A stretch of DNA of 64,000 nt from Gemmatimonadaceae bacterium (GTDB lineage: Bacteria; Gemmatimonadota; Gemmatimonadetes; Gemmatimonadales; Gemmatimonadaceae): positions 1 through 64,000 of the forward strand of contig JAIEMN010000027.1 of the NCBI GenBank assembly GCA_019752115.1, given 5' to 3'. How positions within the stretch are numbered: the first letter of the stretch is position 1; every line of letters starts with the position of its first letter. The position numbers and the translations under genes are program-made. Positions 15,975 through 38,158 of the stretch are shown one piece after another. The notes below the pieces were generated by a model. That model worked only from the letters and a program-made list of their open reading frames with translations. It had not been told where the DNA came from and ran no database searches.

Positions 15975-17327
15975 ATGGCCTCCTCTCTCCAGCTGACTCT
16001 TCCGTTCGCTCCGTCGTGGTCGTGGTGGCTGGTGCGTGAGGCCCAGGTCGCCATGGACCACGTGATTGAGTATGCGCTGACCTGCACCGCACTGGCCCCC
16101 TCGTGGGGCCGTTGGGGCCATCCTGACGCGTGTGTGTCCGCGGTCGATGCGGCGGTGCAGCTGGAGCTGTGGAGTGTTCCAGGGACGGCCCCACGCGACC
16201 CGACGCGTCCGCGATCGGATGCGGTCAGCCTCGCGGATCTCGATGAGGACGACGATCGCGACGATCGCGACGATCGCGATGCGCTCGACGCTGACGACAC
16301 GAACGACGAGGCCGACACCGCGGGGGCCGCAACCGGCGCGGTCTACGAGGCCCGGGACGCGTGGATGGGCATTGAAGCGATTGTTGAACGGCTCGGCGAG
16401 GCGGGAGTCACGGGTAATCCTGAGGTGGTACGGCTCCTCGCGCTGCTGGCGTCACCGGCCTACCGCGCGCACGGGTACGGCCCGCGCTTCTTACTGACGG
16501 CCCCGCCCAGCGCGGGGAAGACGTTTCTGCTCGGCGCCCTCGCCGACGCGCTTGGCGTGCCCAGCCTGCATATCGATGCCAGCATCATTACGCCCGAAGG
16601 CTGGTCCGGCACCAACGTGAGTGAGTTGATCAACGCGCGGATCGGTCGGGGACCGGGCCAGTATTCGATCGAGCAGTGGCGCGCGGGGGCGGTGCTGGTG
16701 CTCGACGAGATCGACAAGGCGTGTCGGGCGTCGCCGGATGACCGGTATGGCACGGAGGTCCGGCTGGAGCGACAGCACGCGATGCTCGGGCTGGTCTGGG
16801 GCGGCACGCCAATTCGCTTGAAGGATGGCGCGGCGATCCGCACCGACCGGTGGGTTGTCGCGGCGTGTGGCGCCTTCGCCACCACGCGGTTCGTCGCGGA
16901 ACAGCGTCCGCCGACCGATCCAGAGTTGATTGCCTGGGGGATGAGTCCGGAGCTCGCCAGTCGGCTCCCGATCCGACTCGTCCTCGCCCCGCTCACGCGG
17001 GCGGCCTTCGTGGAGCGACTGCAGCATGACCCGCGCGGCCTCACGCATGTCCGTGCGCTCGCAGCGACCTTGGGCGTTGAACTCGAGGTGCCGGAGCAGA
17101 CGCTCGCGTTCCTGGCGCAGGCCGCCGAGGCTGATCCGCAGGCCTTCACGGTGCGCGCGGCATCGGGCTGTTTATCACAGGCCGTGCTTGAGCGACTCGC
17201 GCGCATGGGACCGCAGCAGATTGGGCAGGCTTTGCGCCTCGTACCGGACGACCTCACGATTGTGGTGCAGGCGCCCGTACGCCGTCGTCCTCCGCGGGAT
17301 GGCGAGGACGAAGTGTTTGCGCTCTAG
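15975..17327 (+). CDS. ClpX/HslU-like AAA+ ATPase
   Basis: The 450-residue protein has an N-terminal adaptor-like part (1-75) and an acidic linker with a 9-bp tandem repeat (16251-16277) coding D-D-R. An AAA+ domain follows: Walker A APPSAGKT (176-183), GWSGTNV (ClpX-like pore-side segment), Walker B VLVLDEIDKA (240-249), and MSPELASRLPIRL with the arginine-finger Arg. It resembles ClpX/HslU unfoldases, but the N-terminus is not the Zn-binding kind and no peptidase partner is nearby. The start has the same leader as a frameshifted gene at 29137. Probably element 1 cargo, with a defence or regulatory role inferred. Confidence 0.75.
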   Translation: MASSLQLTLPFAPSWSWWLVREAQVAMDHVIEYALTCTALAPSWGRWGHPDACVSAVDAAVQLELWSVPGTAPRDPTRPRSDAVSLADLDEDDDRDDRDDRDALDADDTNDEADTAGAATGAVYEARDAWMGIEAIVERLGEAGVTGNPEVVRLLALLASPAYRAHGYGPRFLLTAPPSAGKTFLLGALADALGVPSLHIDASIITPEGWSGTNVSELINARIGRGPGQYSIEQWRAGAVLVLDEIDKACRASPDDRYGTEVRLERQHAMLGLVWGGTPIRLKDGAAIRTDRWVVAACGAFATTRFVAEQRPPTDPELIAWGMSPELASRLPIRLVLAPLTRAAFVERLQHDPRGLTHVRALAATLGVELEVPEQTLAFLAQAAEADPQAFTVRAASGCLSQAVLERLARMGPQQIGQALRLVPDDLTIVVQAPVRRRPPRDGEDEVFAL

Positions 17328-17469
17328 GCGCTGGGCACGACGGAGGACCTTGCGTCGTCGGGTAGTGTTTACGAGCGCCGCGCGTTGACCGGCGCGACAG
17401 CGGATAGGGGTTCGTGGCGAAAGTAGCGTGCCGCTAAAGTGACCTGACCAAGCGATCGGAGAACTGGTG

Positions 17470-18225
17470 ATGAAGCGAACAACCGGGATCGAATGGACAG
17501 ACGTCACGTGGAACCCGATGACGGGTTGCACGGAGATCTCCGCGGGATGCGAGCACTGCTATGCGGCGTCGGTAGCGCGCACACGCCTTGACACTATCTA
17601 TCGGCAACAGACTCCGGTCCGGGACACGCCACGCAATCGGGCGGATCCGTTTGCCCCTCGGTTTTGGCCAGATCGTTTGCGGCTCCCCACAAGCTGGCGA
17701 GCGCCCCGGCGCGTGTTCGTCAATAGCATGTCCGACGTCTTTCACGCTCATTTCCCGGAATCGCAGATCCGCCAAGTGTGGGAGGCCATGGTCGCCGCCC
17801 CGCAGCACCAGTTTCAGGTCCTGACGAAGCGCCCGGAGCGCGCACGGCGACTCGCCACACTACTTGCGTGGCCGTCGCATATCTGGCTTGGGGTTTCAGT
17901 CGAACACGAAGACACGGCGCGGCGGATCGACCTGCTCCGAGAAATTCCCGCCGCAGTGCGCTTCGTGAGCGCGGAGCCGCTCTTGGGCCCGCTCGATGCC
18001 GTGGACTTTCGTGGCATCGATTGGGTGATTGGCGGCGGAGAGAGTGGCCCCGGCGCTCGCCCGGTCTCTTTGGAGTGGGCACGAGGGCTCCGCGATGGCG
18101 TGAAGCGCGCCGGCGCGGCGTTCTTTTGGAAGCAGTGGGGCGGCGCGCACCCGAAAGCAGGCGGACGCCTGCTCGACGGCGTCGAGTGGAACGAGTACCC
18201 CGCGCCTACCCTGTCCGACGTGTAG
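17470..18225 (+). CDS. DUF5131 (phage Gp37/Gp68) family protein
   Basis: This 251-residue protein matches the DUF5131/Gp37-Gp68 family, a radical-SAM-like group. Diagnostic parts are GIEWTDVTWNPMTGC, EISAGCEHCYA (three Cys motif), VFVNSMSDVFH, VLTKRPERA, IWLGVSVE, AEPLLG, WVIGGGESGPGARP and FFWKQWGG. These proteins are commonly paired with TcmP, which is the convergent neighbour (18229-19125), with only three bases between the stops. The pair is linked to anti-phage and mobile contexts; the reaction is unknown. Confidence 0.9.
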   Translation: MKRTTGIEWTDVTWNPMTGCTEISAGCEHCYAASVARTRLDTIYRQQTPVRDTPRNRADPFAPRFWPDRLRLPTSWRAPRRVFVNSMSDVFHAHFPESQIRQVWEAMVAAPQHQFQVLTKRPERARRLATLLAWPSHIWLGVSVEHEDTARRIDLLREIPAAVRFVSAEPLLGPLDAVDFRGIDWVIGGGESGPGARPVSLEWARGLRDGVKRAGAAFFWKQWGGAHPKAGGRLLDGVEWNEYPAPTLSDV

Positions 18226-18228
18226 GAC

Positions 18229-19125
18229 TCACCCAGCGAACAATCCGAGCTGCGGGCTCACAGTATCCATCTCCCACTCGGCGAGTTTCAGCGCGACTGG
18301 CTTCCGGCTTGCGAAGAACATCGTGTACAACTCGCACGCACCGGTCCGGTAGATGCGACGCGGGCGTAACACATGCGCCAGCCCGAGCGTTGCCAGTTGC
18401 CGTTCGTAGAGCGCTTCGAGCTCCTGCCGCATCTCCGGACTCTCCGCGTCCGTGCGGCGTGCTCGCGCGATGCGACGCCAATCGTCGCAACCGAAGTACG
18501 CGGTTAAGGCGCGCTCCAAGGGATTCCCGCGATAGGAGATCGCGCGATTGACCCCCATCATCCCCGGATACAGCAGGTACAGATCGAGCGCCCCGGGAAC
18601 CGAGGCGCGGAGCGCCTGGCAGGATGCCCAGGGCCAGTGCCCCGGCTTCTCCGGATCGACAAACGCAAAGACATATGGCCGTGGCGGCATCATGCGCGCT
18701 AGGCGTCGCACGACCGCATTGGCGTCGTCGTTGATGACCTGAATGTTCTGCCGCGGAACGGTGAGGCGTCCTTCGGCGTGGAGTGCATCGACACGTGCCG
18801 TCAGCGCGTCGTGATCGTCCTCATCGAGATTGACCAGAATCGCATGCGTGAACTGAGCCCGTCGAGCGCGCGCCGGCTCGCCGAGCGCGTCGAGGACACG
18901 AATCGCGCCCCCCGGCAAGAACTCCCGAGCACGCGCATCAAAGAAGACGCCCGGTCCGGCGAAAAGGTCCACGTACACGCGATGGCAAAAGTGACGTGCT
19001 GCCACCGTCAGCGCAGGTGCCAAGTAGCGATCGAGGAACGACAGCTTGTCGTCTGCCCATCGGCCATTCGAGCGCGCAATGTGGCCGTCATGGGCAACGG
19101 GGTCTCCCTTCCGATACTCCACCAT
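18229..19125 (-). CDS. tcmP: Three-Cys-motif partner protein TcmP
   Basis: The 298-residue protein from ATG 19125 matches TcmP: VYVDLFAGPG near residue 40, then DPEKPGHWPWASC, LYLLYPGMMGVNR and a C-terminal FFASRKPVALKLAEWEM. A Rossmann-like methyltransferase fold is suggested by the G-x-G-like DLFAGPG. It partners the DUF5131 three-Cys protein, encoded convergently. An ATG farther upstream (19215) is open but reads as non-protein, so 19125 is preferred. Confidence 0.9.
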   Translation of the reverse strand: MVEYRKGDPVAHDGHIARSNGRWADDKLSFLDRYLAPALTVAARHFCHRVYVDLFAGPGVFFDARAREFLPGGAIRVLDALGEPARARRAQFTHAILVNLDEDDHDALTARVDALHAEGRLTVPRQNIQVINDDANAVVRRLARMMPPRPYVFAFVDPEKPGHWPWASCQALRASVPGALDLYLLYPGMMGVNRAISYRGNPLERALTAYFGCDDWRRIARARRTDAESPEMRQELEALYERQLATLGLAHVLRPRRIYRTGACELYTMFFASRKPVALKLAEWEMDTVSPQLGLFAG

Positions 19126-19374
19126 CGGTGACTTCACGCACGGCTCCGGGCAAAGGACACGAACGCGGTGACCATGGAGCCTAACACGGTCTCGTGACAT
19201 CCACCAAACGAACACAAAACGCGGAGGAGTGGCTCGCGCTGGTCGCCGACAGTGTCAACATTTGTTGACATGCGAGCGCGCGGCGCGCGTGAGAGGGAGG
19301 CGCGCTTCACTGTCAAGAAAGGCTGACACGGCGTGCGTCTGCACGCTCTCGCGCAGCGCCAACGGGAGTGTCAA

Positions 19375-20542: not shown

Positions 20543-20848
20543 CTATTCGTCGTCGTCCTCAAACTTGGGTATCGCGGCACGCTCGAGCAGGAACTCGTGC
20601 TCGTCCTTGCTCCGGGGAGGACCGAGGAGGTCTTCCACCGTGATCCCGAAGAAGTCAGCGAGTATCCACAGCTTCCGATACGACAGCTCGCGCTGGCCCC
20701 CTTCGTACTCGTTGAGCGCGCCGTGCGAGAACCCGAGCTGTAGCGAGAGATGGCGCGCCGACATGCCCTGCCGCGTACGCCAGGCTTTGATGCGTCTCCC
20801 GACCAGGAGACGAATGTCGACATCCGAAAGATCGGTATAGCCCCACAT
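20543..20848 (-). CDS. XRE-type HTH regulator, divergent from the transposition operon
   Basis: The minimum frame from ATG 20848 is 101 residues. A longer N-terminus is likely, because coding character (NVDWATFRQ) continues upstream with no obvious start. It has an XRE helix-turn-helix (MSARHLSLQLGFSHGALNEY) and a conserved tail, FFGITVEDLLGPPRSKDEHE. The element 2 counterpart (38159-38512) shares WGY, the HTH and DELLGPPRTREEHE. It lies back to back with the transposase gene, as does the element 2 copy, so it is inferred to repress transposition and itself. Confidence 0.75.
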   Translation of the reverse strand: MWGYTDLSDVDIRLLVGRRIKAWRTRQGMSARHLSLQLGFSHGALNEYEGGQRELSYRKLWILADFFGITVEDLLGPPRSKDEHEFLLERAAIPKFEDDDE

Positions 20849-21081: not shown

Positions 21082-22956
21082 ATGTTTGGCGGAGAACCAC
21101 GCTTACGCGCCGTGAATCGCCCCACGGACGCGAACCGCGAGGAACAGACGGCGGTCGCAGTACAGGCAGATGAACGCGCACGAGCGCGATGGCAGTGGGC
21201 GCGGGCCATCGCAGTCGCATCACAAACCGCGCGTGGGTCCATCCGCGCCAGACTCAGCGATCTACAGGCGATCGGCATTGCTCCCGCCGGTCCCATTCCG
21301 TCGCCGGCGCAAGTGCGCCGACTGAAGGCGGCGTGGGACGCCGGCCATCGGGAGCCGCACGCCTATCTCGACAAGCCGCGAACCGGACGCCCACGATTCC
21401 ATCGTGACCAAGTGAAGGCTCAAGCGTTTCGGTCCGCCATTCTTCAGGCACAAGCCGTGGCACCGCAAGCCGCGACGATGGTCGTCGCCGAAACCGCGGC
21501 GCAGCGCGGGTGGGCGCAGCCGTCGCCAAGCACCGTTCGACGCCTGTTGGCTGACGTCGGCTATCGACAGCTCGTGGCCGCACGGCATGGCAGTCGCGCT
21601 GCCGAACTGGATGCGAGTGTGACGGGGCATCTCCCCCGAGAGAATACGCACTATCGATGGTGCATCGATGAAGGCATGCTGCCGCTGTGGGCTCGGTACT
21701 TCTGTCCGATCGCGCGTGGCTTCCGTTCGTACCGGCCGTGGGTGGTCGTGGTACGGGATCATACCTCTAGCATCATCGTCGGATGGTATCTGGTGAATCC
21801 CGTGGGTAACGGGAGACCGGACCGTGACCCTCGTTTGGGCTTCGATGCCGATGACGTCATGGCGGCGCTGATCACGGCGGCGTCGGCCGACGTGGCGCCG
21901 CCCTCCTGCCGCCCGTTTGCCGGTGCGAGCCCGAACGTGATCCGCTGGGATAATCACTCGACCCATCGTCTGCTCGAGCGCAGCTGGGCTGACTACCGCG
22001 GCGCGGCGCCAGCGATAGAAGAGGCCGAGCCGCCACGTCACGAGCGCGTGCCGGTGCGACGGCCTATCAATAACGGCGCCGCTGAACGCACGATCGGCAT
22101 CCTCAAGTCGCACCTCGCGACCACGCCATCGCATATGGATCGGGTGCACCCGGCCGATATGGCCAACCTCGAAGTACGCGAGGGGCCCCCACGCGCGCGA
22201 ACGATGGTCGCCGCGCACGGTCCGGAGCGACTCACGAGACACCGCATTGTCGAAGCGGAAGAGCTTCCGGACCACGCCGCCGTGTTTGATCTCGTCGACG
22301 CTGCGGTGACCCAGTACAACGGGTCCCGCTATCAGAAGGGGCGCCTCACGCGAGCCGACGCGTTTCTTCGTCATCGGTCGTCGACCGCCAGGTCTGGTCA
22401 GATGCTGCTCCGGCTCCTGCCCGTGCAAACCCACCGCGTGACCCGAGAGGGCCTGCCTTTTCTGCACCGCGATGGGCGCGTTCTGATCCGGCCAGAAAAC
22501 CCGGCGGCCTTGTTTGCGGCCGCAATTCCTCAGCTGGTGACGTTCTACGGCGATCCCGGAGCGCGCGGCGTCTGGGCGCGCCAGCGCGACGCCCTTGTAT
22601 TCCTCGCACGCCGAGACGAACCGCTCTCGCCGACGGCGTTCCGAGACTTCGTCATCAACGGCGCGGCGCGGGCGCGGCGAGCCTCTGATGATGTCGATCC
22701 GGCCAGCGTGCATCTGGCAATTCCGCAGCCCGACCGTTCAGCGCTGAATCCAAGCGATATGGACGACGCCCTTGACGCACTGTCTGAACAGGCGCGCCAC
22801 CCTGCCGTGTTCACACCAACCGAGAGGCATCACGACCATGCCGGCGAGCGGCACTCCACGCCGCAGGATCTTCGAACCGATTTCGACATCCTCACCGCTG
22901 AGCAGCTCCGCCAGGCTGAGCGCGTCGATCAATACATCGCCGAGGATACCCTGTAA
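21082..22956 (+). CDS. DDE transposase, TniA/TnsB-like, element 1
   Basis: The 624-residue protein starts at ATG 21082 with a GAGGAG site just upstream. Its catalytic rve core has WCIDEGM (D196), RWDNHSTH (D290) and NNGAAERTIG (E335), and a helical N-terminal DNA-binding part begins GGEPRLRAVNRP. The element 2 protein has the same residues at 196, 290 and 329. It likely joins element ends to target DNA, like TniA or TnsB, which work with an AAA ATPase. The stop overlaps the ATPase ATG by one base (TAATG). Confidence 0.8.
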   Translation: MFGGEPRLRAVNRPTDANREEQTAVAVQADERARARWQWARAIAVASQTARGSIRARLSDLQAIGIAPAGPIPSPAQVRRLKAAWDAGHREPHAYLDKPRTGRPRFHRDQVKAQAFRSAILQAQAVAPQAATMVVAETAAQRGWAQPSPSTVRRLLADVGYRQLVAARHGSRAAELDASVTGHLPRENTHYRWCIDEGMLPLWARYFCPIARGFRSYRPWVVVVRDHTSSIIVGWYLVNPVGNGRPDRDPRLGFDADDVMAALITAASADVAPPSCRPFAGASPNVIRWDNHSTHRLLERSWADYRGAAPAIEEAEPPRHERVPVRRPINNGAAERTIGILKSHLATTPSHMDRVHPADMANLEVREGPPRARTMVAAHGPERLTRHRIVEAEELPDHAAVFDLVDAAVTQYNGSRYQKGRLTRADAFLRHRSSTARSGQMLLRLLPVQTHRVTREGLPFLHRDGRVLIRPENPAALFAAAIPQLVTFYGDPGARGVWARQRDALVFLARRDEPLSPTAFRDFVINGAARARRASDDVDPASVHLAIPQPDRSALNPSDMDDALDALSEQARHPAVFTPTERHHDHAGERHSTPQDLRTDFDILTAEQLRQAERVDQYIAEDTL

Positions 22957-23942
22957 TGCCCATCATCCCGACGCTAGACCGGGAATCCGCGCCGGTGCCT
23001 GAGACGATACAGCTGGAGCAACCGGAGGAGCGCGCCTTGCCCTACATCGAGGAGCGTCGACTCGAAGGGCAGCTCCGTCATGCGCTCGTGCAGGCGGTCT
23101 GCGCCAATGCGCGCCTGATTCTCACGGGTCCACGCGGTATCGGAAAGAGCTTCACGGTCAATCGCTTGCTCACGCGCCATCTCCGAGAGCTCGCTGGAGA
23201 TGGACCATTACCGTGTGTGATCGCCTGCTCACTCATTGTCGCCAATACAGCCCGGGACACGTTTCTCGCCATCGCCCGACAGGCGGAGTACCGCCGCATC
23301 GTAGAACGCGTGTCACGCCATCGTGTGCCGGACGACGCGCTGCGCGGCGAACTGCTCAGCGCCATGAGTCAACATGGGCGCACCGTGCTCGTCATCGACG
23401 AGGCGCACAACCTGAGTGGACCGGCCACGCAGGCGATTCTGGATTTGCTTGCCGAAGCGGACGATCGAGCCGGCAATGAAGCGCGGGAGCCCTGGCTTGG
23501 GGTAGTGCTGATCGCATCAACGCCACACGATCGAGCGCTGCTATCCCGCATCGGTCCACGCGAACGGATCCAGAACGTCGTCACCCTCAACGCCGATGCG
23601 CTCGGAGACCTCGCGCGCTATCTCGTCGCGTGGATTCCCGAACTCCGAACCACGCCGGAATTTTCGAGCGACGACAGCGGTGCGGACTGGATCGCGAGAC
23701 ATCTTGGCCATGACGATGTCACGCTCAGAACGATCGTCAGTCTAGCAAGTTCGCTGCGAGTCATCGCGGATCGACTCCAGCAGCGCGGCCCCCTTACGAC
23801 CCAGAGCCTGCTTGGGCAACTGACCGTGCTCGCCCGTCAGTACATCGGCCATCAGCATCGCGAGGGTGCGCGCATCGCCATCCTCCCCGTTCGAAGGAAA
23901 GCCGGGCGCAACAAGAAGCGAGGAACGCCTCATGCCGAATAA
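22956..23942 (+). CDS. TniB/TnsC-like AAA ATPase, element 1
   Basis: The 328-residue protein has Walker A GPRGIGKS (58-65), Walker B RTVLVIDEAHNL (142-153) and LGVVLIASTPH, with the sensor-like Ser/Thr. It resembles TniB, TnsC and IstB, which select or deliver target DNA to the transposase. Its Walker A position is identical in element 2. The frame overlaps the next gene by 11 bases. Confidence 0.8.
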   Translation: MPIIPTLDRESAPVPETIQLEQPEERALPYIEERRLEGQLRHALVQAVCANARLILTGPRGIGKSFTVNRLLTRHLRELAGDGPLPCVIACSLIVANTARDTFLAIARQAEYRRIVERVSRHRVPDDALRGELLSAMSQHGRTVLVIDEAHNLSGPATQAILDLLAEADDRAGNEAREPWLGVVLIASTPHDRALLSRIGPRERIQNVVTLNADALGDLARYLVAWIPELRTTPEFSSDDSGADWIARHLGHDDVTLRTIVSLASSLRVIADRLQQRGPLTTQSLLGQLTVLARQYIGHQHREGARIAILPVRRKAGRNKKRGTPHAE

Positions 23943-25701
23943 AGCCGGTGTCGCAACTTCGTCGACGGTACGCGACCCTCAGGTGATCGCGCTGCTCGAG
24001 GCGATCGTGACACGAGAGCAGGAGCCGCCCGCTCTCGTGCCGACAATACAGTCCGTCGCCAGGCGTTCGCGGCGATCGTTCGACCGCGTTTTTCAGGCCC
24101 TGCTGCGACTCGACGGCACTGCCGTCCACATCGGATATCTGCCGACCGGCGTGCTGGCGGTCGCCCCCGCGACGCATCCCGAGGTGCACCGCATGGTGCC
24201 GGCGAAACACTCGCTGCGACGACGCCAGATCATCGGCCCGTTCGAGCAGGCGCTCAAGGAGCAAGTCGCCCGCGCGGGACGCGGCGTAGAGTCGATGGCC
24301 GTCCGAGATGCGCTCCTGCAGCAGAACATCTTCTGCACCTCGCAGTTTGCCACGGTGTGTTGCCACGCGTTGCTTAAACGCGGAAAGATCACACGCGCAT
24401 TTGTCGCCACCCGCAACCCCGATCAACGACGACCGCGTTGGGTGTGGGGTCCACTCGGAATCGACTTAAAACCAGAACGGGTGATCATTTCGCAGGGCGC
24501 TCTCGCGCATCAGCTCGTCGACGAGTTGGCGCGCGAACTTGGACGTCCGGTGTCACGCGCCGAGATTCGGGCGTGGGCGAAGGCTGGACTGCCCGGGGCC
24601 TCGGCAGCGTTGCTTGAGTATCGCGCCGCGGTCTCTAGACTGATGCAGTCGTACCTGCCCGTGGTACTCGGGCAGACCAAGGGGCTGAACGCCTGGAGGC
24701 CGTCGGGTGCCGCGCGCGGTACGCTCGGTTCGCGGTACTCCACCGGTGGAAGCTCGACGCTGCACCATGACCTCATCGGGCTTGAGGATGCGATCGAACG
24801 CTTCGCGTTCGGTAAAGACCTGGACCTTGAGCACGACCTCCGCTCGCGGGCGGGCTCCATCGGCAGCGCGCTTCAACACGTGCTTGTGGCACGCGACGAG
24901 TATCGGAGGGCGGCGCTTCGGTCCATGGTGCGGAGTGAGGCGGACATCGCGGCGCTGGCCGCACACGCAGTGACGGCCGCGTCGAAGATCATGAGTTGGA
25001 TCACCACCCCGCGCCTACGCAAGACCTGCGAGCGGGTCGTTCTGCGCTGCGAACGTGTGCTCGCCGTCGCGCCGCTCCTGGTGAAGCTCGCCGCACAGGA
25101 TGCCCCCACGAGCAGTAAACGCGTGTTCGTGGCCGATCGAGGGCTTCGCGACTGGACAGCTCTCGAGCGCTGGCGGGCGGAGCTCTTCGAACGTGTGCCG
25201 AGGCGCCGGCGGTCGGCGAGTATTCTGAGCGGCGCCAGGCGGTTCCCTGGCTTAGGCAGAGTGCTGGAGATCTCCACCGCCGAGACGAGCATCGACGTGC
25301 TGGATGGCTTGGAAGGATTGCTGGAGACCATGCCCCTGCCCCGCGCCAAGACTCTTGTTGACACCACGTGCATGCTATTCGGGACCATCATGCGGGATGC
25401 CGCCGTGGTGATCCCGCTGCTGAGTGATCCAGAGGTCCCTCGAGGTATTCGTTACGGCGCGTTGATCGGCGCCTCGCTCTTGGGAGCGCCGCTACGGATT
25501 GACCCGCGATCATTCGGCCATCAGCGGCAGGATATTGATGCGCTGGCATTCGCCGCGGCGGTCGAGCCGGAAGCGTCCGCCGACACGATCGAGGCGGTGT
25601 TGACGCCAATCGCGGCGGAGCCACTGCCTATGCGCGGCCGTGCGCTGAAACTGATTGAGCGAGCCCATGAGGGCGCGCGCCTGACGCTCATTGACGACTG
25701 A
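23932..25701 (+). CDS. Large protein of the transposition operon, unknown family (element 1)
   Basis: A 589-residue protein conserved with 41554-43329 but not recognised. Visible parts: an N-terminal HTH-like segment (VARRSRRSFDRVFQALLRL, 42-60), a second winged-helix-like region about residues 130-185 (ALLQQNIFCTSQ, then PRWVWGPLG), a shared block ELGRPVSRAEIRAWAKAGLP, then RGTLGSRY and GLEDAIERFAFGKDLDLE. Two DNA-binding-like modules in a transposition operon that has no TniQ suggest a target selector. This is inference. Confidence 0.65.
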   Translation: MPNKAGVATSSTVRDPQVIALLEAIVTREQEPPALVPTIQSVARRSRRSFDRVFQALLRLDGTAVHIGYLPTGVLAVAPATHPEVHRMVPAKHSLRRRQIIGPFEQALKEQVARAGRGVESMAVRDALLQQNIFCTSQFATVCCHALLKRGKITRAFVATRNPDQRRPRWVWGPLGIDLKPERVIISQGALAHQLVDELARELGRPVSRAEIRAWAKAGLPGASAALLEYRAAVSRLMQSYLPVVLGQTKGLNAWRPSGAARGTLGSRYSTGGSSTLHHDLIGLEDAIERFAFGKDLDLEHDLRSRAGSIGSALQHVLVARDEYRRAALRSMVRSEADIAALAAHAVTAASKIMSWITTPRLRKTCERVVLRCERVLAVAPLLVKLAAQDAPTSSKRVFVADRGLRDWTALERWRAELFERVPRRRRSASILSGARRFPGLGRVLEISTAETSIDVLDGLEGLLETMPLPRAKTLVDTTCMLFGTIMRDAAVVIPLLSDPEVPRGIRYGALIGASLLGAPLRIDPRSFGHQRQDIDALAFAAAVEPEASADTIEAVLTPIAAEPLPMRGRALKLIERAHEGARLTLIDD

Positions 25702-25707: not shown

Positions 25708-26241
25708 GTGGACCGGACATGCTCAGCCTTGATCGCCTTGCGGAACGCGATGCGGTGGTGTGGTCGACCGGTCACGCACGACGAACTCGATCTTCCGTGG
25801 CGCGACACGGCAGGCGGAGCCATTGAGTGTCTGGCCAAGTGCCACCCCCGATGCATCGCGGAGTACTCAATCGGGACCACAACGTATCTCGCACCAAGGA
25901 TAGGCGCGCAGGGGCTGACGGACTGGGACCGTATTCGGGCCTCAGTCCACTCGCTTCTTCCTCGATTCGAACCGGGGCTTTCCCCCGAGCTGGATGAGCC
26001 GCTTCGAGGACTCGTTGCGCAGGCGACCTCGATCAGAAGTGTCGTCCGCTTTGATCGCGAGAGCTATCTGAATGCGCGCGTGATTGCCAACATGCTTCTT
26101 GAGGCATATACAGCACTCTTGAACGTTGGCTCGCCCGTCAATCTCACGCAGTCGCCTACGATCGCGCATCGCTGGCGTGTTGAGGCCGCAGCCTCTCGTA
26201 CATTCGACGCCTGGCTAGTCCGGCAGCCATTTGCTCGGTGA
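25708..26241 (+). CDS. Small protein of the transposition operon, unknown family (element 1)
   Basis: A 177-residue protein starting at GTG. Its C-terminal half (FDRESYLNARVIANMLLEAY, then HRWRVEAAASRTFDAWLVRQ) aligns with the element 2 protein at 43333-43875, while the N-terminal half is divergent. Six bases separate it from the previous gene, and a terminator follows at 26338. Accessory role in transposition is inferred. Confidence 0.6.
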   Translation: MDRTCSALIALRNAMRWCGRPVTHDELDLPWRDTAGGAIECLAKCHPRCIAEYSIGTTTYLAPRIGAQGLTDWDRIRASVHSLLPRFEPGLSPELDEPLRGLVAQATSIRSVVRFDRESYLNARVIANMLLEAYTALLNVGSPVNLTQSPTIAHRWRVEAAASRTFDAWLVRQPFAR

Positions 26242-26372: not shown

Positions 26373-26399
26373 GCCATTCGCGATCGACTGTCGCGATAC

Positions 26400-26487
26400 T
26401 GCACCCTCGACCGCGTCGACCGCTCCGAACTTTTGGTGAGCCGCTCCAAACTTCTGGCGAACCGCATCAAGAGATACGGAGGCCGAC
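26400..26487 (-). repeat. Right end of element 1
   Basis: Read on the reverse strand from 26487: GTCGGCCTCCGTATCTCTTG, TTGAT at offset 18, then TTTGGAG about 40 bases in and TTCGGAG about 60 in. The element 2 right end shares GTCGGCCTCC, ATCTCTTGAT and the same spacing. These are likely transposase-binding sites. Confidence 0.65.
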
Positions 26488-26718
26488 TGTCGGGCTTCAG
26501 ATGTCTTGAGAGGTGCCCTCCGTAAGTCCTGAGAGGACGAAAAGCAGGCACCAGAGTAGCGACAGTCTGTCCGGGTTTCAATCAACACCGAGGGATCCCT
26601 GGCGATACGCCCCGTCGAGGTGGATTGACCGCCATCTCTACTTCGAGATGCGCGCTTCATCGGTGTGCCGAAAGCGGACACGGAGCACATTTTTCGTTAA
26701 TCCTGTCCTATACCGAAC
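26488..26718 (+). repeat. Relic left end of a third element
   Basis: It begins TGTCGGGCTTC directly after the element 1 right end. TTGAG follows at offset 18 (26506) and CTGAG at offset 41, the architecture of the two complete left ends (offsets 18 and 43). About 230 bp without a gene then lead to the element 2 left end. It reads as the remains of an element whose body is gone. Confidence 0.4.
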
Positions 26719-27062
26719 TGTCGTAGCCAGACAGTTTTGACAGACTCAGCCGTTGCCGGTTTTGAGACAGAGGCAGGCTCCCGAATTGTCTTTGGAGGGC
26801 CGACGGTGGCTTGATAGCGACATGCGTACTAAGCCCTCAAAGAGACATCGCGTTCGGCGCAGTCTACGACCCATCGCCCGGGCGACCGCGCTGCTGCGTC
26901 GCCTTGGGGTGGTATGGGTCGTCCGGCGCACCCCAGCCGGACTGTGGCTCGTCGACTTCTATACTCCGAACAATCTGCGCATCTCCGTTCGGACGCCGCA
27001 GAATGCCCCGACGCCGCCGGTGCTCGCGCTAATGATCTTTGCCCATGGCGCGGCTCGCAGCG
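26719..27062 (+). repeat. Left end of element 2, repeat of 9126-9475
   Basis: About 340 bp match 9126-9475 in the same orientation, including two GTTTTGA sites 25 bp apart (26734 and 26759) and the first part of the left-end gene. Differences are scattered single bases, so the copies are older than the IS481 insertion. Confidence 0.75.
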
Positions 27063-27265
27063 GCCATCCACGGGGGTCCCGCGCGTGGTGTGAGGCGTCG
27101 GGCTTCTTCTGGCCGCTTGAGGGTCGGACACCTGATGATCTGCAGCAGATCGATGCGATGTATGATCGCGATGTCCAGAATCTGCGCATACTGACCGATG
27201 CATTCGGCGCGACGGTAGTGCGGCGCTTGGCCGGCTTCGCTGAAGAAATCTTTGCCGAGTATTGA
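26822..27265 (+). CDS. Left-end gene, unknown function (intact copy)
   Basis: A 147-residue basic protein with an Arg/Lys-rich N-terminus (RTKPSKRHRVRRSLRPIARA), a beta segment (LWLVDFYTPNNLRI) and a helical C-terminus. A truncated relative sits at the same place in element 1 (9229-9501), so the gene belongs to the element backbone rather than to cargo. DNA or end binding is only a guess from position and charge. Confidence 0.6.
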   Translation: MRTKPSKRHRVRRSLRPIARATALLRRLGVVWVVRRTPAGLWLVDFYTPNNLRISVRTPQNAPTPPVLALMIFAHGAARSGHPRGSRAWCEASGFFWPLEGRTPDDLQQIDAMYDRDVQNLRILTDAFGATVVRRLAGFAEEIFAEY

Positions 27266-27297
27266 TCGAAGTCGCGTGTGTTGCGACTTTCGATGCT

Positions 27298-27678
27298 ATG
27301 CCATCCCGGAATCCCCAGACACTCGCCGCGCGGCTTGCACAACTGGAAGCGACAATTGCCAGCGGCGTCGACCCCGCCTCGTACATTCCCGAGCTCCGGA
27401 GCATCTTTCGCGACTCGCTCGAGCACGGTCTGCCCTGTTTGAGGGATCATTCATTGGGCAGCGCCGCACACGCGCAGGAAGTCTTTGAGGTGCTCGCCAG
27501 CTCCGTTACTCGCGACATGCGGCCGGGACCCAGCTCACCGCTCGTGCAGCTACTCAGCATGGCGCGAAAAAGCGTGCGGTGCCCCGAGCGACAGCACATT
27601 GACCCGCCTTCTCTGGAGATGGTTGAGGCGGAGGACGGCGTGCGGGATCGACTGCGGCGGCGGGGCCGCCTCGGGTAG
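27298..27678 (+). CDS. Hypothetical protein
   Basis: A 126-residue, mainly helical protein from ATG 27298 (RNPQTLAARLAQLEATI). A TTG at 27262 would overlap the previous stop and is less likely to be the start. No domain recognised; it follows the left-end gene in the same direction and may be co-transcribed. Confidence 0.5.
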   Translation: MPSRNPQTLAARLAQLEATIASGVDPASYIPELRSIFRDSLEHGLPCLRDHSLGSAAHAQEVFEVLASSVTRDMRPGPSSPLVQLLSMARKSVRCPERQHIDPPSLEMVEAEDGVRDRLRRRGRLG

Positions 27679-27708
27679 TCGGTCAGACCTTCGTCTCGCG
27701 AATCCCGC

Positions 27709-28545
27709 TCATTGATGCGGGCAAGCGGCCAAGTAGACACCGTTCTCGTCCGCCTGGGCGCCATGGTGCAGGCCTAAGAACCGCGCTACGCCGTCGGTAA
27801 TCAGGTCCAGTTGCGCCGTGGTGAGTCGCTGTGGAAACACCTGTGCGATATGGTCCGTCGTGCGCACCGAGGCCACATCGGCGGGGCTCCCCGCGAACTC
27901 AACGGACCCCAAATGACCAGTGATCTGCTTTCCCCAGAGCGCGGGGAAGCGGAGCCAGTCCGACGGAAGCTCCTGCACCGTGGTTAGACGCATGTCGTAG
28001 ATGGGCACGACGACGTGCTCTTGTTCGCGTGCTGCGTACGCGGCCGTCGTGAGAATCACGGCATACTCGGTGTGGAAATAGTCATGCCCCACTTTCGTAA
28101 GGCGTGCGATCGCCCCGCGCTCACCGGCCCCAGATGTCGCCCGCCCTGATGTCGACATGCCGGCGGAAATCCGTCGCCGGAGTGCCCACAGATAATCAGG
28201 CGGCAATACACCACGCGGGTTGCCGAGCCGAGCGAGGGGGACGCGCCGGATGGCGGCGCAGTTGAAGTGCGTGAGGTGCTCCACACCACCGTTTGGCGGG
28301 CCGTTGGGCGCCACATCAAGGGCGAAGCAGGGCGCGCCAAAGGCACACTGCGTATACGCACTCGTGCCGAACACCATCACCGCGACATCCGTTTGGGAGT
28401 CACGGCCGACCATGATGTGCCGATGGGCGAAGGGATCGCGATACAGCGAGGCAGCATACTCGGGAACGACGTGCACACGGCCGGCGGGGGCAACGTCAAG
28501 CACCGCGAGCGGAGAGACGGAAGCGGTCGGTCCCGGTGTGGTCAT
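27709..28545 (-). CDS. Possible PemK/MazF-like toxin
   Basis: The 278-residue protein from ATG 28545 (a TTG at 28575 would sit in the terminator) contains GRVHVVPEYAASLYRDPFAH, RHIMVGRDSQTDVAVMV, and IRRVPLARLGNPRGVLPPDY. The order of strands and the closing helix (ALRRRIS) vaguely resemble the PemK/MazF fold. It follows a 66-residue gene of antitoxin size across a terminator. Assignment is weak, and it may instead be a stand-alone unknown. Confidence 0.35.
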   Translation of the reverse strand: MTTPGPTASVSPLAVLDVAPAGRVHVVPEYAASLYRDPFAHRHIMVGRDSQTDVAVMVFGTSAYTQCAFGAPCFALDVAPNGPPNGGVEHLTHFNCAAIRRVPLARLGNPRGVLPPDYLWALRRRISAGMSTSGRATSGAGERGAIARLTKVGHDYFHTEYAVILTTAAYAAREQEHVVVPIYDMRLTTVQELPSDWLRFPALWGKQITGHLGSVEFAGSPADVASVRTTDHIAQVFPQRLTTAQLDLITDGVARFLGLHHGAQADENGVYLAACPHQ

Positions 28546-28573
28546 CCGTATCGTTGGGTCGCAATCGAGGGGC

Positions 28574-28602
28574 AAAAAAAGCGGCCAGAATACTCTGGCC
28601 GC
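28574..28602 (-). terminator. Intrinsic terminator after the small gene
   Basis: GCGGCCAGA (28581-28589) and TCTGGCCGC (28594-28602) form a perfect 9-bp stem with loop ATAC, and seven T follow on the minus strand (28574-28580). It lies between the 66-residue gene and the larger gene downstream, suggesting partial attenuation. Confidence 0.85.
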
Positions 28603-28637
28603 TACACTTCAGCGTTCACTGTCTCAATATAGCGCGA

Positions 28638-28838
28638 TCAGTCCGCAACCTCGTCACTGCGCACGAAGTAGCGCGAGTTCTTGGCGCCGATCGTCGCGAG
28701 GCCCTGATCGTGAATCTGCTTCTGAATGGCCATCGCGTGGGCCCGGCGCGACTCGTCTGAGTCCGACGGCTGCGTGCGGGGCGGCGACGCGACGTCGAGC
28801 AGCGCCCGCGAAGACTTCGAGAGAGTGGTCATATGCAT
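28638..28838 (-). CDS. Small hydrophilic protein (possible antitoxin)
   Basis: A 66-residue protein from ATG 28838 (or 28832). It has a Ser/Asp/Arg-rich middle (SDSDESRRAHAMAIQK) and a C-terminal SRYFVRSDEVAD. Size, charge and position upstream of a larger unknown gene suit an antitoxin. An intrinsic terminator follows. No family recognised. Confidence 0.5.
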   Translation of the reverse strand: MHMTTLSKSSRALLDVASPPRTQPSDSDESRRAHAMAIQKQIHDQGLATIGAKNSRYFVRSDEVAD

Positions 28839-29136
28839 CGAGGGTGAATGCCACACCCTACGGGTCCGTTCAGGGGGTGTCAAGCGAAGCGCCACAGGCA
28901 CCGGTGCAATACCGACGACAAGAAGTACGCCAACGGCACACCGCGCGTTCCCTGGCGTGGCCGCCAGGCATTGCATGTGACGCCGTAACCCATTGTGGTT
29001 CCGTGAGTTTCGGTGTCGACGGCTGGCGACTTCTCTCCTTTTCGCTATGGATCCGTTCGGCGCCGCCGGGTCGGCGTTGTAACGAACTGTCAGTGGGCGG
29101 GTGATATCCGAGAGTACCCGAATAAACTCCGAACCA

Positions 29137-29408
29137 ATGACCTCCCAGCACCCTCTTCCATTTCCACCCTCGCTCGAGTGGTGGAAGTCCGCGATGCGGA
29201 GCTCGCCCGCGACTGGCTGATCGACCGGGCGCTCTTGGTGGCGAGCCCGCATCTCGCGAGTTGGCCCTTGATCCGACTGACGATCACCCCGCAGCCGAGT
29301 CCATGCCCCGTCTGCCGTGATCTATCGCTGATGCCCGCCATCGAGACCGCGACTTTACGGCTCGGCGTCGAGCGGGGCACTCACCTACTGACCGAGTTCC
29401 CCGGCTAA
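29137..29408 (+). pseudogene. Frameshifted relative of the AAA ATPase N-terminus
   Basis: ATG 29137 begins MTSQHPLPFPPSLEWW, like MASSLQLTLPFAPSWSWW of the 15975 gene. The related VRDAELARDWLIDRALLVAS lies in another frame immediately after, so one base has been lost around 29185-29190. The upstream CCGAATAAAC resembles the 15959 leader. After about 60 residues it ends in a CPVC-containing tail without the AAA domain. Confidence 0.5.
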
Positions 29409-29621
29409 CGGCTCACGAGCGATTCACCCAAAAACCTAGGGATGTTCCGCCTGGGGACTTCAAGCCAAACGACACCGACCAAGGCTTACGCGGACAGTCT
29501 GTTGGGCCCATCTGTGGTTGCCCAACAGCTCGCGACGCTTTCCGTTTCACTTCCTGTGCATGAAACGATCTCTCAGCTCAAGCATGCGATAGCCGCTCCA
29601 ATCGTACCTCTCACAGCTGCA

Positions 29622-30254
29622 CTACCGATTCCATCCATGCCTGACGGCTGCGCGTGCCAGATCCGCTGACGCGTCACGATCGGGAACCTCCTGCTGAAGG
29701 TACAAGCGTCTCGCAGCGTCGATCCCAGCCTTCCCTGTCCTAAGAAGCAGGCGTTCGATTGCCCATGTCGCGGCATACCCGGGCTTTCGTGCCACCGCTT
29801 CCAACGCTCCAATGAAGCCGATCGTGTCACGTGGCGAAGCGAGGGCGCGAATGGCCGTGAGTCGGACGTCATCTTCGGTGGACCCTCTCGCGATCGCGAA
29901 CAGACGCGACTCAGCTCCGGCATATCGCACAAAGCGTCCCTCCGACGGAAGCGATGCGTATCCCAATGCTAGGGTGGCCGCGGTGCGGGTGCGAATTGCG
30001 ACGTTAGCGCTGCCGGGCGAGAGTGCGATCGCTACCAGAGAGTCCGCCGCCTCATCAAGATCGCCCCGCGAGGTAGCGGAAGACTGCGGCGTTCGAAGGC
30101 TACGGCCAACCTGTGCAAAGTCTCCTCGGTCTCGAATAGCGCTCGCGACCGACGATGCAAGTCTAATATTCTGGGCGCTCGCCTTAAACGCGAACGAAGC
30201 TCCGAAGATAATCAGTGAGGTGACAGAGGTCAGAAGGCGGTTCATGTTAGTCAC
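29622..30254 (-). CDS. Exported HEAT-like protein
   Basis: The 210-residue protein starts at GTG 30254 overlapping the previous stop, with an ATG at 30245 also possible. It has a signal peptide (SLIIFGASFAFKASAQ) and short helical repeats (DVRLTAIRALASPRDTIGFI, ALEAVARKPGYAATWAIERL) of HEAT type. It is coupled to the HExxH lipoprotein gene upstream. Protein-protein binding in the periplasm is likely. Confidence 0.6.
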   Translation of the reverse strand: MTNMNRLLTSVTSLIIFGASFAFKASAQNIRLASSVASAIRDRGDFAQVGRSLRTPQSSATSRGDLDEAADSLVAIALSPGSANVAIRTRTAATLALGYASLPSEGRFVRYAGAESRLFAIARGSTEDDVRLTAIRALASPRDTIGFIGALEAVARKPGYAATWAIERLLLRTGKAGIDAARRLYLQQEVPDRDASADLARAAVRHGWNR

Positions 30255-31918
30255 CGGTAGAAGTCAATTCTCTGCGTCGTCCATCGTCCGGTGGACAGCG
30301 GCACGTATTTGATGGTCGCGTGGTCCGTGAAAGAGTTCGGATCTAGCGTTTTTGATCTTCTGAAGAGCGAATCCCTAACAACTTCGTAGGCCGTCTCAGC
30401 AAAAAAGCTCGCGACGTTGCTCTCGTTCGCAACAACCCGCTCTGTCAGTCGCTGCAGATCGAATGAAGTGGTGCGGCCCATGTTCACGATCAGATTTGCG
30501 TGACTTGCTTCGTGAGCCCAGATGACCGAGGTAAACCTATTGTATTCTGCTGATTCGGTTGAATAGCACGCATTCATTGACTCATGCGTTCTGCTTGGCT
30601 GGCTACCGGCACAGGGATTCACATAGAAGCCGAAGTCGACCTGCGATAGGCTGTACGTAGGTCCGTCGGCCCGGAACTTCTTGTGCAACTGCGTGCGGAG
30701 ATCTGCACCTACGGCAAACGACGAGACATACCAGAGACCTCGATTCGGCCCTCCACCGACGACCTGATCAAGAGTATATCCGCTCCCCCGCCTATATCGA
30801 CTAGAGATCGGAATGAGGATGTCTGCGTTAACGGTTTGTGCACAACTTGCAGATGCCGTCAGGCCAGCGGTGATCCGATTGGGGCCTTCTGGATCAAAGC
30901 ACCCATCGATATCGCCCGGCGCACCGGGCTGCCATCCAAGAGCGGCGCTCCAAGACCAGCCAGGACGTCGATCAACAGTTACACTCGCGTTCTTGGCGTA
31001 CTGGACGCCGTTGACCCGTACTTGCACGGACACCCGTCCCGACTTGACCATCGGCCCCGACCACGTCAATGCGTTGGTCGTATCCTCGACGACGACATTC
31101 GACTGCATGCCAGAAATCGTGTCTGCTGCCTCAAACTTCCAATACACCGTATCGTCGCCGACTGCGTGACCGGAAATGGTAAGTTTACAGGTGATATTTC
31201 CGCCCCACGGTACTTGTGCGGGCGTACACTCAAAGTCATTTGGCAAGGCGGTTCCCCCCGAGTTTGTCGGGAAGTCCTGATTATCCTGACAAGAGAACCC
31301 GAGGCCCCCTTCCACTGCAAACACCTGACAGCCGTTTCCGCACTCCCAAGAGGATCCAATGAGCGACGCGCCCTGACTACGCAGCGCAGATCTACTAGTC
31401 GCGTAGCCGCCCCAAAAGCAGGTCACTCCGTTACACTCGATTCGATCCGCGTTGCCATAATCAGCAGTACACCAAATTTCGTCACCCGAGAACGTACTGC
31501 GACGCCCATTCGACCGAGCCTGCGCGCCCCTCCAGTTTCTGATGAACGCACGCGACGAGGCCGCTGTTCGCAAGATGCAGTTCGTCACCGCGACAGATCT
31601 GCGCGTTGATCGCGACAGCGCGAAAGCCGAATACGGCGCAAACTCGATCTGCTTGCTTACAGACGCCTCGACGGCCTCACGTTCCGCCGTCCACTTCCGT
31701 GCTGTTGGGTCGAAGCGTTGGGTCTCGCAGACATTCTGATTGGCCGGGATGTTCTCAAGGGTGAATATCGGGATACGGCTCGTCAGTTCTTCGGTGCCTG
31801 CCTTTGACTCTCGCACCTCTGTCGCCATTGACGGAGCCGACGCGAACTCTGAGACGCATCCGAGGAGCACGGCAGAAAAGATGAGACATGCAATGCGATT
31901 ACCATGGGGGATTCTCAT
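30251..31918 (-). CDS. Lipoprotein with HExxH zinc-protease motif
   Basis: The 555-residue protein begins at ATG 31918 and has a lipobox (IFSAVLLGC). A Cys-rich, beta-rich middle (CTADYGNADRIEC, FECTPAQVPWGGNITC) is followed at about residues 469-473 by VIWAHEASHANLIV, an HExxH zinc-binding motif as in gluzincins. A third ligand (Glu in ERVVANESN about 30 residues on) is plausible. It may be a surface or secreted metalloprotease. The 29622 gene is coupled downstream. Confidence 0.6.
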   Translation of the reverse strand: MRIPHGNRIACLIFSAVLLGCVSEFASAPSMATEVRESKAGTEELTSRIPIFTLENIPANQNVCETQRFDPTARKWTAEREAVEASVSKQIEFAPYSAFALSRSTRRSVAVTNCILRTAASSRAFIRNWRGAQARSNGRRSTFSGDEIWCTADYGNADRIECNGVTCFWGGYATSRSALRSQGASLIGSSWECGNGCQVFAVEGGLGFSCQDNQDFPTNSGGTALPNDFECTPAQVPWGGNITCKLTISGHAVGDDTVYWKFEAADTISGMQSNVVVEDTTNALTWSGPMVKSGRVSVQVRVNGVQYAKNASVTVDRRPGWSWSAALGWQPGAPGDIDGCFDPEGPNRITAGLTASASCAQTVNADILIPISSRYRRGSGYTLDQVVGGGPNRGLWYVSSFAVGADLRTQLHKKFRADGPTYSLSQVDFGFYVNPCAGSQPSRTHESMNACYSTESAEYNRFTSVIWAHEASHANLIVNMGRTTSFDLQRLTERVVANESNVASFFAETAYEVVRDSLFRRSKTLDPNSFTDHATIKYVPLSTGRWTTQRIDFYR

Positions 31919-33120
31919 ATGTACTCCGTCGAAGGTTGACAAATCATTCTCAACCGCTTCGGGTAGCCACTCCCGTTGCTTTGTGCAGGGACGTTCAGCT
32001 CGAAAACAGAGAAGTAATTCGCCGCGTCACCGCCGCGTCATCCGTCTGGTCCCAGTAAGCGTCGCATATCCAATTGCGTGCCGGTGGCGAACTCAGCACT
32101 CGTAGCGAGAGGCGCGCGCGACCACCTTCGCCGAATGACGACCATGGATAAACCCGTTTCTTGCCGAAACTTTGGTGTCATCCAAAGTGTCGTGTGACCG
32201 CTGCGCACTTCCGCTGCCTCCCCGTCCCCTCTTCTTCCCGACCTGCAACCCATTGCGCTTCAAAGGGATACGAATGGACTTGGCGGCGCACCAATGCGTA
32301 GTCAGCCACCGGCTCGCTGCACTCGCCGCAGGCCGCGTTCGGCAGTCGCGCGTTCGCTAGCTGTGGGTGGGACGGTAGCTGGGACGGTCGGAGAGACGGT
32401 ACCTCCCTGCGGAGGACGGCGTCGCGCGGTTCGACCGTGTCAATAATCGAATGATTCTCCCCCCAGTGATCGTCTCAAAGTCCCACCGGGTGAAGGTCAC
32501 AGCTCCGCGTGAGCTGTGACGGTGGACCGCCGCAGCCTCGCTTTGCGCTTCTCGCGGAGCCGGCGCGAGTCGCCCCTGATCTTGATCGTGGTCGCGTGGT
32601 GCAGGAGCCGGTCGGTGATGGCGCTGACGATGGCGGCCTCGCCGAAGCCGTCACCCCAGGCCTCGAGGCTCTGGTTGCTGGTCAGCAGGATGGCCCGTCG
32701 TTCCTAGCGGCGGCTGATCAGTTGGAAGAAGAGAGCGCTTCGAAGACGGGATCTGTCGGCACGGCATCGCCGAACCGTAAGGCCTGCTCGGTCGAAAGCG
32801 CGGTTTGGGCCGGCGTCACGCCATGGCCCCTGAGAGGCAGACTCAGGCGGGCTATAGTGTTTCAGTCGAGCACACGCCAGAACGAAGCACCTTTATCAGA
32901 GGTGGATTCGAGCTGATAAGGCCCCGAACCGCTGGCTCTCGCCGAGTCGGCTCTTTGGAATAGAGACGGTATCCCTTCTAGTGGCCACGTAAGCAGCCTG
33001 ATCATTCACACCCGCACAACGGGCGCACGGGATGCTGGACGTCGGCAACGGCAGTGAATACCGCGTAGATTCTCGCTCTGGACATAGGTGGAATCATGCG
33101 GTCGCTGATTGTGAGGGCTA
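31919..33120. other. Intergenic stretch with an IS21 remnant
   Basis: Only the IS21-family fragment (32438-32760) is recognisable. The rest has no credible gene. GGGACGGT occurs twice just outside the IS21 end (about 32370-32390). Confidence 0.4.
32438..32760 (-). mobile_element. IS21-family remnant with degenerate istB
   Basis: The minus strand encodes the C-terminus of an IstB ATPase: LFFQLISRR, then a TAG in place of Tyr, ERRAILLTSN, SLEAWGDGFGEAAIVSAI, DRLLHHATTIKIRGDS and RLREKR. The stop lies at 32497-32499. A terminal-looking TGTCAATAATCG at 32438 and CTTTGAGACGATCAC internally resemble IS21 right ends. The istA gene and most of istB are missing. Confidence 0.75.
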
Positions 33121-33621
33121 ATGACAGGTACCGTTGGATGCATGGCTGGCCTTGGCTACGTCGCCATTGTGATGGCGCTGCTCGGGAGTGGGACGACAGG
33201 CGGCGTCCTCGCGGGTTTCGCGATGATCTTTGGACCGTTCGCAGTCGATGCCATTCAGTCGCTGCGTGAAGCGCGGAGATCACGAGAAGCGATGGAGGCC
33301 GCTGCGCGCGCGCAGGAGGATCGACGCGCCTCGCAGCAAGCAGCGGTCGAAGCGGAGGCAACCTTTGTACAATGGTCCGCACAACACCTCTCGCCGTGGG
33401 CGAGCGCCACCGAGCGCAATGCGGCTCGCCAGCAGTTTGAGCGGGAGCAGCAGTGGCGCGCCCTCGTTACCCAGCGAGAAGAACTGCGGCGCGTGTCAAA
33501 GCTGCATCACGCGAAGACTCCCATAGTCTCCACACCGTCGTCTACGTCATCAGCACCCCGACGGCAGATTCTCTGCGGACGGTGCGGCAGCATCCACGAG
33601 CCCCCAGCGTGCAGTGAATAA
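33121..33621 (+). CDS. Membrane protein with coiled coil and C-terminal Cys motif
   Basis: A 166-residue protein with a hydrophobic N-terminal hairpin (LGYVAIVMALLGSG, GVLAGFAMIFGPFAV) that would span the membrane. A charged helix (about 50-120, EAAARAQEDRRASQQAAVEA) looks coiled. The end has CGRCGSIHEPPAC, a C-x2-C...C that may bind zinc. Unknown function; cargo of element 2. Confidence 0.55.
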   Translation: MTGTVGCMAGLGYVAIVMALLGSGTTGGVLAGFAMIFGPFAVDAIQSLREARRSREAMEAAARAQEDRRASQQAAVEAEATFVQWSAQHLSPWASATERNAARQQFEREQQWRALVTQREELRRVSKLHHAKTPIVSTPSSTSSAPRRQILCGRCGSIHEPPACSE

Positions 33622-33665
33622 CGCCTGCGTGGTGGAAGACAAAAGTCTTGAATCGAAAATATCGA

Positions 33666-35120: not shown

Positions 35121-35168
35121 AGTGGTTCTCCTAATCACCTTTGCAAATACGGGGGCATGGGCAGGTAA

Positions 35169-35951: not shown

Positions 35952-35990
35952 GCGTCGCTCGCAGAAGGGGTTGGAACAACGAAAAGCGCG

Positions 35991-37364: not shown

Positions 37365-37550
37365 GCAGGTCTCCGATTGGTTGGCGCACACCACACGGAT
37401 TCGACATACGAGCGGCACTGACAGAGGCCGCTCCTAACGCAGGATCACCGTTCCAACGTATGCGCCGATCGCCGACGCGCTACTCGGGCGACGCGTCTTG
37501 TCCCAGAGAAAGCACCGGCGCATCGACCGCAGACCGTTTCCCGCAGACCT

Positions 37551-38066
37551 TTGCGCCGTCACGCGCGCCTCGCGTGGGATCCGTGCGGGTGGACCGAGCC
37601 TAAGGCGCGCCGGGGTGCCGCACTCGGCTTACCGGACCAAACCTCCGTACACTACCGGCTCGCGCCGGAATGGCTGAGTCGGCTTGCTTCGGTCCTCGAT
37701 TCGAAGGAGTGCTTCCAACGCCGCGTTAAGGCTCGAAACTGTCCTTCCGTCTCTCCAACGGACCATTCCGTTAACCCCGTTGTGGGAGTGGTGGACGGCG
37801 CGCATTCGGTTCGGGTACCGATTTGCGCATTGAACGCAAATGCTGCGGCGGCGATCGCCGACTCGGCGTGGCAGCGCCTCACTGCCCCCGCAACGGATAC
37901 GTTGGGCGTCAGTGAATGCGCCTTGACCATCGGTGCGGCGGTATGCGAGGCGCAGCGATTACTCGCGGATGGCGCGATCGCATCTGTGGCGCTCCCGATG
38001 CGCTGCTGGCGTATTCATCTCCGTGATGACGACGGCGTGGTCGGCATCACTGGCGGCGTACCGTGA
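37551..38066 (+). CDS. Hypothetical protein
   Basis: The 171-residue frame has high third-position GC in its second half (LNANAAAAIADSAWQRL, LTIGAAVCEAQRLLADG). The first half is less convincing, and the start may lie further in. No family recognised. Confidence 0.35.
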   Translation: MRRHARLAWDPCGWTEPKARRGAALGLPDQTSVHYRLAPEWLSRLASVLDSKECFQRRVKARNCPSVSPTDHSVNPVVGVVDGAHSVRVPICALNANAAAAIADSAWQRLTAPATDTLGVSECALTIGAAVCEAQRLLADGAIASVALPMRCWRIHLRDDDGVVGITGGVP

Positions 38067-38158
38067 CACGGCGTAACTGACGCCCAGTACATCCGGGGTG
38101 ACTAACGCCGAGGCCGGCCAGCGGGTACCGGGCCGCAGGCGATCGGCCTAAGCCGCGC

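Follow-up and report, generated by a model that had tools for sequence, protein, structure and literature searches.

What brings two related transposons to lie next to one another, beside one conserved small gene, in a genome in which no TniQ target selector is detected? The question is raised by the first 64,000 nucleotides (forward strand, positions 1-64,000) of contig JAIEMN010000027.1 of a Gemmatimonadaceae bacterium (GCA_019752115.1). This whole stretch, called here the window, begins at the start of the contig. It holds two transposition modules, M1 and M2, and we use the same names for the transposons that carry them (element 1 and element 2). Their third genes are called X1 and X2, and their fourth genes Y1 and Y2. 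Our best explanation, to which we give a probability of about 0.6, is that X is the target selector of these elements or an adaptor to their ATPase.

Gene content of the two modules

The genes of M1 and M2 are the following.

20543-20848, minus strand: Cro/CI-type HTH regulator of M1, divergent from the M1 operon; a reading frame with clear resemblance to the M2 regulator
21082-22956, plus strand: M1 DDE transposase (TnsB/MuA/TniA-like); PHROG 310 Mu-type transposase, E 2.5e-12; DDE motifs
22956-23942, plus strand: M1 AAA+ ATPase (TnsC/TniB/MuB-like); Pfam AAA_22, weak TniB
23932-25701, plus strand: X1, 589 aa; predicted tandem winged-helix N-terminus, HTH-like third unit and helical C-terminus
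25708-26241, plus strand: Y1, small fourth gene of no known family; 32% identity to Y2 over 104 aa
38159-38512, minus strand: Cro/CI-type HTH regulator of M2, divergent from the M2 operon; Pfam HTH_3, E 3.9e-6
38736-40565, plus strand: M2 DDE transposase; PHROG 310, E 1.6e-12; DDE motifs
40562-41557, plus strand: M2 AAA+ ATPase; Pfam TniB, 26.1 bits against a cut-off of 22.4
41554-43329, plus strand: X2, 591 aa, homologue of X1
43333-43875, plus strand: Y2, small fourth gene, homologue of Y1

Both operons run in the order DDE transposase, AAA+ ATPase, X and Y. Each X gene overlaps the stop codon of the preceding ATPase gene, and Y starts 3-6 bp downstream of X. The frame of the M1 transposase is open from 20935, with the ATG at 21082 as its likely start. 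The two transposases share 54% identity, a weak match to the MuA I-gamma domain was found, and the DDE motifs are kept in all six transposases examined; the assignment to the Mu/Tn7 type is made by PHROG 310 and is coarse as to the nearest branch. The ATPases match AAA_22 and the Mu-type PHROG 296, that of M2 lies above the TniB cut-off, and the match to ShTnsC is weak (E 0.019). Walker A and B motifs are kept in both window ATPases (GPRGIGKS and VLVIDEA in M1). A third, more distant module, with transposase, ATPase and X, lies on another contig of the same genome (contig C32 of G000), and the Cro/CI-type regulator adjoins the transposase in all three modules of this genome.

Element ends and the landing site

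The ends of the elements and the gene beside which they lie are listed here.

26379-26487: M1 right end, a terminal site and two repeats of about 21 bp; 75% identity to the M2 right end
26482-26487, plus strand: left copy of GCCGAC, the 6-bp direct repeat flanking M2
26488-26513, plus strand: M2 left end, TGTCGGGCTTCAGATGTCTTGAGAGG; 21 of 26 bases equal to the M2 right end
44023-44048, minus strand: M2 right end, TGTCGGCCTCCATATCTCTTGATAGG (reading inward)
44049-44054, plus strand: right copy of GCCGAC
44071-44250, minus strand: attachment gene, MSRSRERILTNLEEMYREAF...DVRDAMERR, coding for a conserved small protein; stop codon at 44071-44073

Beyond Y1 and Y2 the two modules agree at 75% identity for about 110 bp, a likeness that ends sharply at 26487 and 44047. 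Since the same end, inverted, starts again immediately after 26487, M2 is delimited as a transposon of 17,561 bp (26488-44048). Its two ends share a 5'-TGTCGG, with further repeats about 21-23 bp inward, and GCCGAC directly abuts the 5'-TG at either end; a 5-bp reading of the flanking repeat would require asymmetric ends. The A at 44055, just after the right GCCGAC, completes the M1 right terminus (GGCCGACA), and M2 therefore sits 1 bp inside that terminus; we infer that M1 now ends with the base at 44055. No left end of M1 was found when 1-20400 was searched with a profile built from the known ends.

How was this place chosen? The genus-wide conserved chromosome begins at about 44064. The attachment gene has 59 codons; its product, of 59 residues or slightly longer, is highly conserved, and the gene is present in the ten sibling genomes examined. 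The distance past its stop codon was originally 15 bp for the M1 end and is 22 bp for the M2 end. Furthermore, a genome of another species (G006) carries, 14 bp beyond the stop codon of this gene, a relict end which matches the M1 end at 33 of 45 positions, the maximum in 200 shuffles being 26 matches; no relict-type end was seen at the attachment gene of the nine other siblings. The simplest reading is site-specific insertion beside the attachment gene. The M1 and G006 insertions may share a common descent, though most siblings have no such insertion, and the adjacency of M1 and M2 could reflect a preference for a transposon end.

Several observations accompany this site. The attachment-gene product is near-invariant across the genus (SRERILxNLEEMYREAFxRAKExxDPAxMxxLDFxYRREQLYFEILLDVRDAxEK). 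At the same site in G006 (C4, L061:5260-8458), a DNA methyltransferase, restriction-like genes and IS630-like transposases stand behind the relict end. A tRNA was considered as the attachment site, and none was found.

The bounds of M2 also bear on the nature of the modules. They could be remnants of Mu-like prophages, with X a phage early gene, as the matches of transposase and ATPase to the Mu-type PHROGs 310 and 296 and the repressor-like gene divergent upstream would allow. We hold this to be most improbable: M2 is bounded at 17.6 kb and carries Trypsin_2, PDZ and Big_2 cargo, no phage structural gene occurs among the ORFs scanned, insertion appears site-specific, and searches of plasmids, phages and viral contigs (including IMG/VR) gave no relative of X or of the transposases.

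On the cargo side of M1, a candidate defence pair occupies 17467-19215, with PDC-M41B on the plus strand (17467-18225, DUF5131, E 2.3e-88) and its partner PDC-M41A on the minus strand (18229-19215, E 6.8e-18); an AAA protein (15975-17327) adjoins the pair. In M2, a trypsin-like protease (Trypsin_2), a PDZ protein and a Big_2 protein are encoded in a row on the minus strand (33666-37418). A segment of 348 bp on the M1 side (9124-9471) is 91% identical to one in the left part of M2 (26717-27064), while the transposase genes are far more diverged, which points either to a recent exchange or to common cargo near a left end.

Protein X and the choice of target

X1 and X2 align from end to end with 39% identity (E 4e-105), far beyond chance. 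The original prediction, which had singled out two large conserved proteins at 23932 and 41554, was right about the reading frames, and the block LGRPxxRxEIxAWxxAGLP that it had noticed is indeed common to both (residues 203-221 of X1). X gave nothing beyond noise in Pfam, NCBIfam and PHROGs, and X1 had zero matches in PADLOC-DB.

Structure models of X were made with AlphaFold2 from an alignment two sequences deep. The mean pLDDT of the X1 model is 46.5, and more than half of each X model lies below 50. Residues 97-174 are modelled as a winged helix (pLDDT mostly 57-80), which superimposes on Zur with a Z of 11.0 at 1.6 Å over 70 residues. Residues 16-79 repeat its order of helix, helix, helix, strand and strand, with pLDDT mostly 63-74. 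In these models the second winged helix alone is firm, and the first is less certain. The HTH-like stretch proposed earlier at residues 42-60 falls on the first predicted winged helix, at its helices 35-45 and 50-58, and the later winged-helix-like region corresponds to residues 97-174; the predicted fold is thus not one unrelated to DNA binding. When X2 was folded separately from residue 188, the model started with a three-helix, HTH-like unit (pLDDT 70-87) that contains LGRPxxRxEI. The remainder of X is all-helical at low confidence. For the C-terminal 406 residues the best result of the fold search is HEAT/ARM-like with a Z of 7.4, within the chance range for helical models, and sequence profiles against the PDB gave weak HEAT-like matches to the C-terminus only; this part is possibly HEAT-like in its modelled form. 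Winged helices are common, and regulation or end binding would be equally possible roles for them.

Across the family, X was detected by profile in 7 of 179 genomes. A first scan of a collection of genome contigs had given nothing with X as the query and one truncated copy with the transposase. At eight loci in four genomes the gene right after the ATPase is X, namely M1, M2, C32, G018, G006:C8, G037:C458 (the start of X only), G037:C301 and G006:C23 (a degraded copy); five of these eight loci lie in related Gemmatimonadota. At these loci X is not a gene of unrelated operons. The lone exception is G044, where a full-length X of 674 aa (L009:9783-11807) stands with no detectable transposase or ATPase alongside; its neighbours are an ABC-type ATPase and a DUF3800-like gene on the opposite strand. 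In G323 and G017 the upstream side of X is a remnant or a contig end. The X-side end of the C32 element lies at L006:8037 (TGTCCGACTTGGATTG) and has exact-pattern copies in G016. There this end (TGTCNGNCTTGGNTTG) recurs as two inverted copies, at L045:497 and L045:6139, which suggests a related, possibly non-autonomous element; a consistent flanking repeat is absent from the G016 copies.

For an element to home, some protein must recognise its site and pass that site on to the ATPase. Regulator aside, X is the only protein besides the transposase and the ATPase in all complete modules, and it stands directly after these two, where TniQ stands in Tn5053-type operons; the original prediction had placed it at the position of a target selector. 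TniQ (PF06527) did not exceed its cut-off anywhere in the genome, the best score being 14.9 bits against 27, on another contig. Because no TniQ is detectable, because X is in all complete modules and because of its DNA-binding modules, we consider X the best candidate for the selector or adaptor. Its linkage to the ATPase at eight loci and the homing at one site are observed, and the winged helix is predicted. Against X as selector count the two-sequence depth and low confidence of the models, the lone X of G044, and the fact that no attachment gene was found for the modules of C32, G018, G006:C8 and G037.

In the mechanism that we propose, X would select the target for a family of Gemmatimonadota transposons of the TnsB/TnsC type. 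The winged-helix modules at the N-terminus of X would recognise DNA where the attachment gene has its 3' end, and the helical part at its C-terminus might recruit or load the AAA+ ATPase. The ATPase would then bring in the transposase, itself bound to the ends of the element, and insertion would take place about 15-22 bp beyond the attachment gene's stop codon. The earlier view of X as a new functional component thus stands as to a conserved third protein with DNA-binding-like modules, of no known family, in elements that home to one site; its binding of site or ATPase is what we infer.

Could the small gene Y read the site instead? Y alone, or X together with Y, could do so, with X as the adaptor between site binder and ATPase. 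Y comes right after X, and M1 and M2, both shown to share the site, have it in conserved form; such an adaptor has a parallel in Tn6022, where TniQ bridges TnsF and TnsC. However, no counterpart of Y was detected in the rest of the genome or seen behind X in C32, G018 and G006:C8, and Y1 and Y2 retain only 32% identity over 104 aa despite their common site. Y, like X, gave nothing beyond noise in Pfam, NCBIfam and PHROGs. We regard this arrangement as rather unlikely, although in M1 and M2 the reading of the site may fall to Y, in part or altogether.

X could also be a transposition accessory, acting in end binding, assembly, target immunity or expression control, while the ATPase or the transposase chooses the site. 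Accessory proteins of this sort often contain winged helices, and in systems of the Mu and IS21 type the target is chosen by transposase and ATPase alone. On the other hand, all three modules of this genome come with a Cro/CI-type regulator of their own, and single-site homing is not known of Mu or IS21 ATPases. An accessory role therefore seems to us unlikely.

The selector reading leaves the question of the family to which X would belong. A very diverged TniQ/TnsD without zinc finger would suit the position of the gene, and several HTH domains occur in TnsD-like proteins (PMC10293859). Nevertheless, the comparison with TniQ and TnsD, made by profile and by cysteine motifs, revealed no likeness: X has no Pfam or NCBIfam match, CxxC and CxxxC are absent from all six homologues checked, and neither TniQ nor TnsD is among the PDB profile matches. 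Such a descent is highly doubtful. The fold lists for the low-confidence X models hold mostly winged helices and helical repeats, and the absence of TniQ, TnsD and TnsE from them carries no weight either way. As regards TnsE and TnsF, X drew no match from the general family libraries. We tentatively suggest, as somewhat less than an even chance, that X represents a class of selector unrelated to TniQ/TnsD, TnsE and TnsF, in which tandem winged helices and a HEAT-like arm would read a gene 3' end and load a TnsC-type ATPase, giving Tn7-style site-specific transposition without TniQ.

Comparison with known transposons

The transposase and ATPase of M1 and M2 resemble the A and B proteins of bacteriophage Mu (PHROGs 310 and 296). 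The modules differ from Mu in having no phage genes seen, in inserting at a single site and in carrying the extra conserved X. With Tn5053/Tn402 (TniA-TniB-TniQ) they share the order transposase, TniB-like ATPase and third protein, and the 5'-TGTC ends; in contrast, X is not TniQ by profile, no resolvase occurs among the ORFs scanned, and M1 and M2 home to a gene 3' end whereas Tn5053/Tn402 home to res sites. TnsF of Tn6022 is, like X, a selector other than TniQ/TnsD with several DNA-binding modules (Faure et al. 2023, PMC10293859). But TnsF is zinc-finger and tyrosine-recombinase-like and works with TniQ, while X is neither and has no TniQ alongside.

TniQ/TnsD is described as occurring throughout the Tn7 branch (PMC10293859), and within the library searched our literature search found no TnsC systems lacking TniQ. 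A homing TnsB/TnsC element with another third protein would imply that the link from target recognition to the ATPase was invented more than once. It would also offer protein-guided insertion at a defined landing site by a compact set of three or four genes.

The closest comparison in behaviour is with Tn7 (TnsABCD/attTn7), which likewise has a DDE transposase of the TnsB type, an AAA+ ATPase of the TnsC type, paired ends with multiple repeated sites and 5'-TGT termini, inserts shortly beyond a conserved gene's stop codon and carries defence-like cargo. The differences from Tn7 are a third protein without a TniQ/TnsD profile match and without a zinc finger, another attachment gene, a flanking repeat of 6 bp in M2 rather than the 5 bp of Tn7, and no TnsA among the proteins scanned. 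Because TniQ/TnsD, by profile, and the 5-bp target-site duplication are not found, we do not file these elements as Tn7-like sensu stricto. In conclusion, M1 and M2 work like a Tn7-type homing transposon and are filed as a TnsB/TnsC (Mu/Tn7) variant with an unrecognised third protein, a little-known Tn7/Mu-like kind of transposon of Gemmatimonadota in which X is the third core gene.
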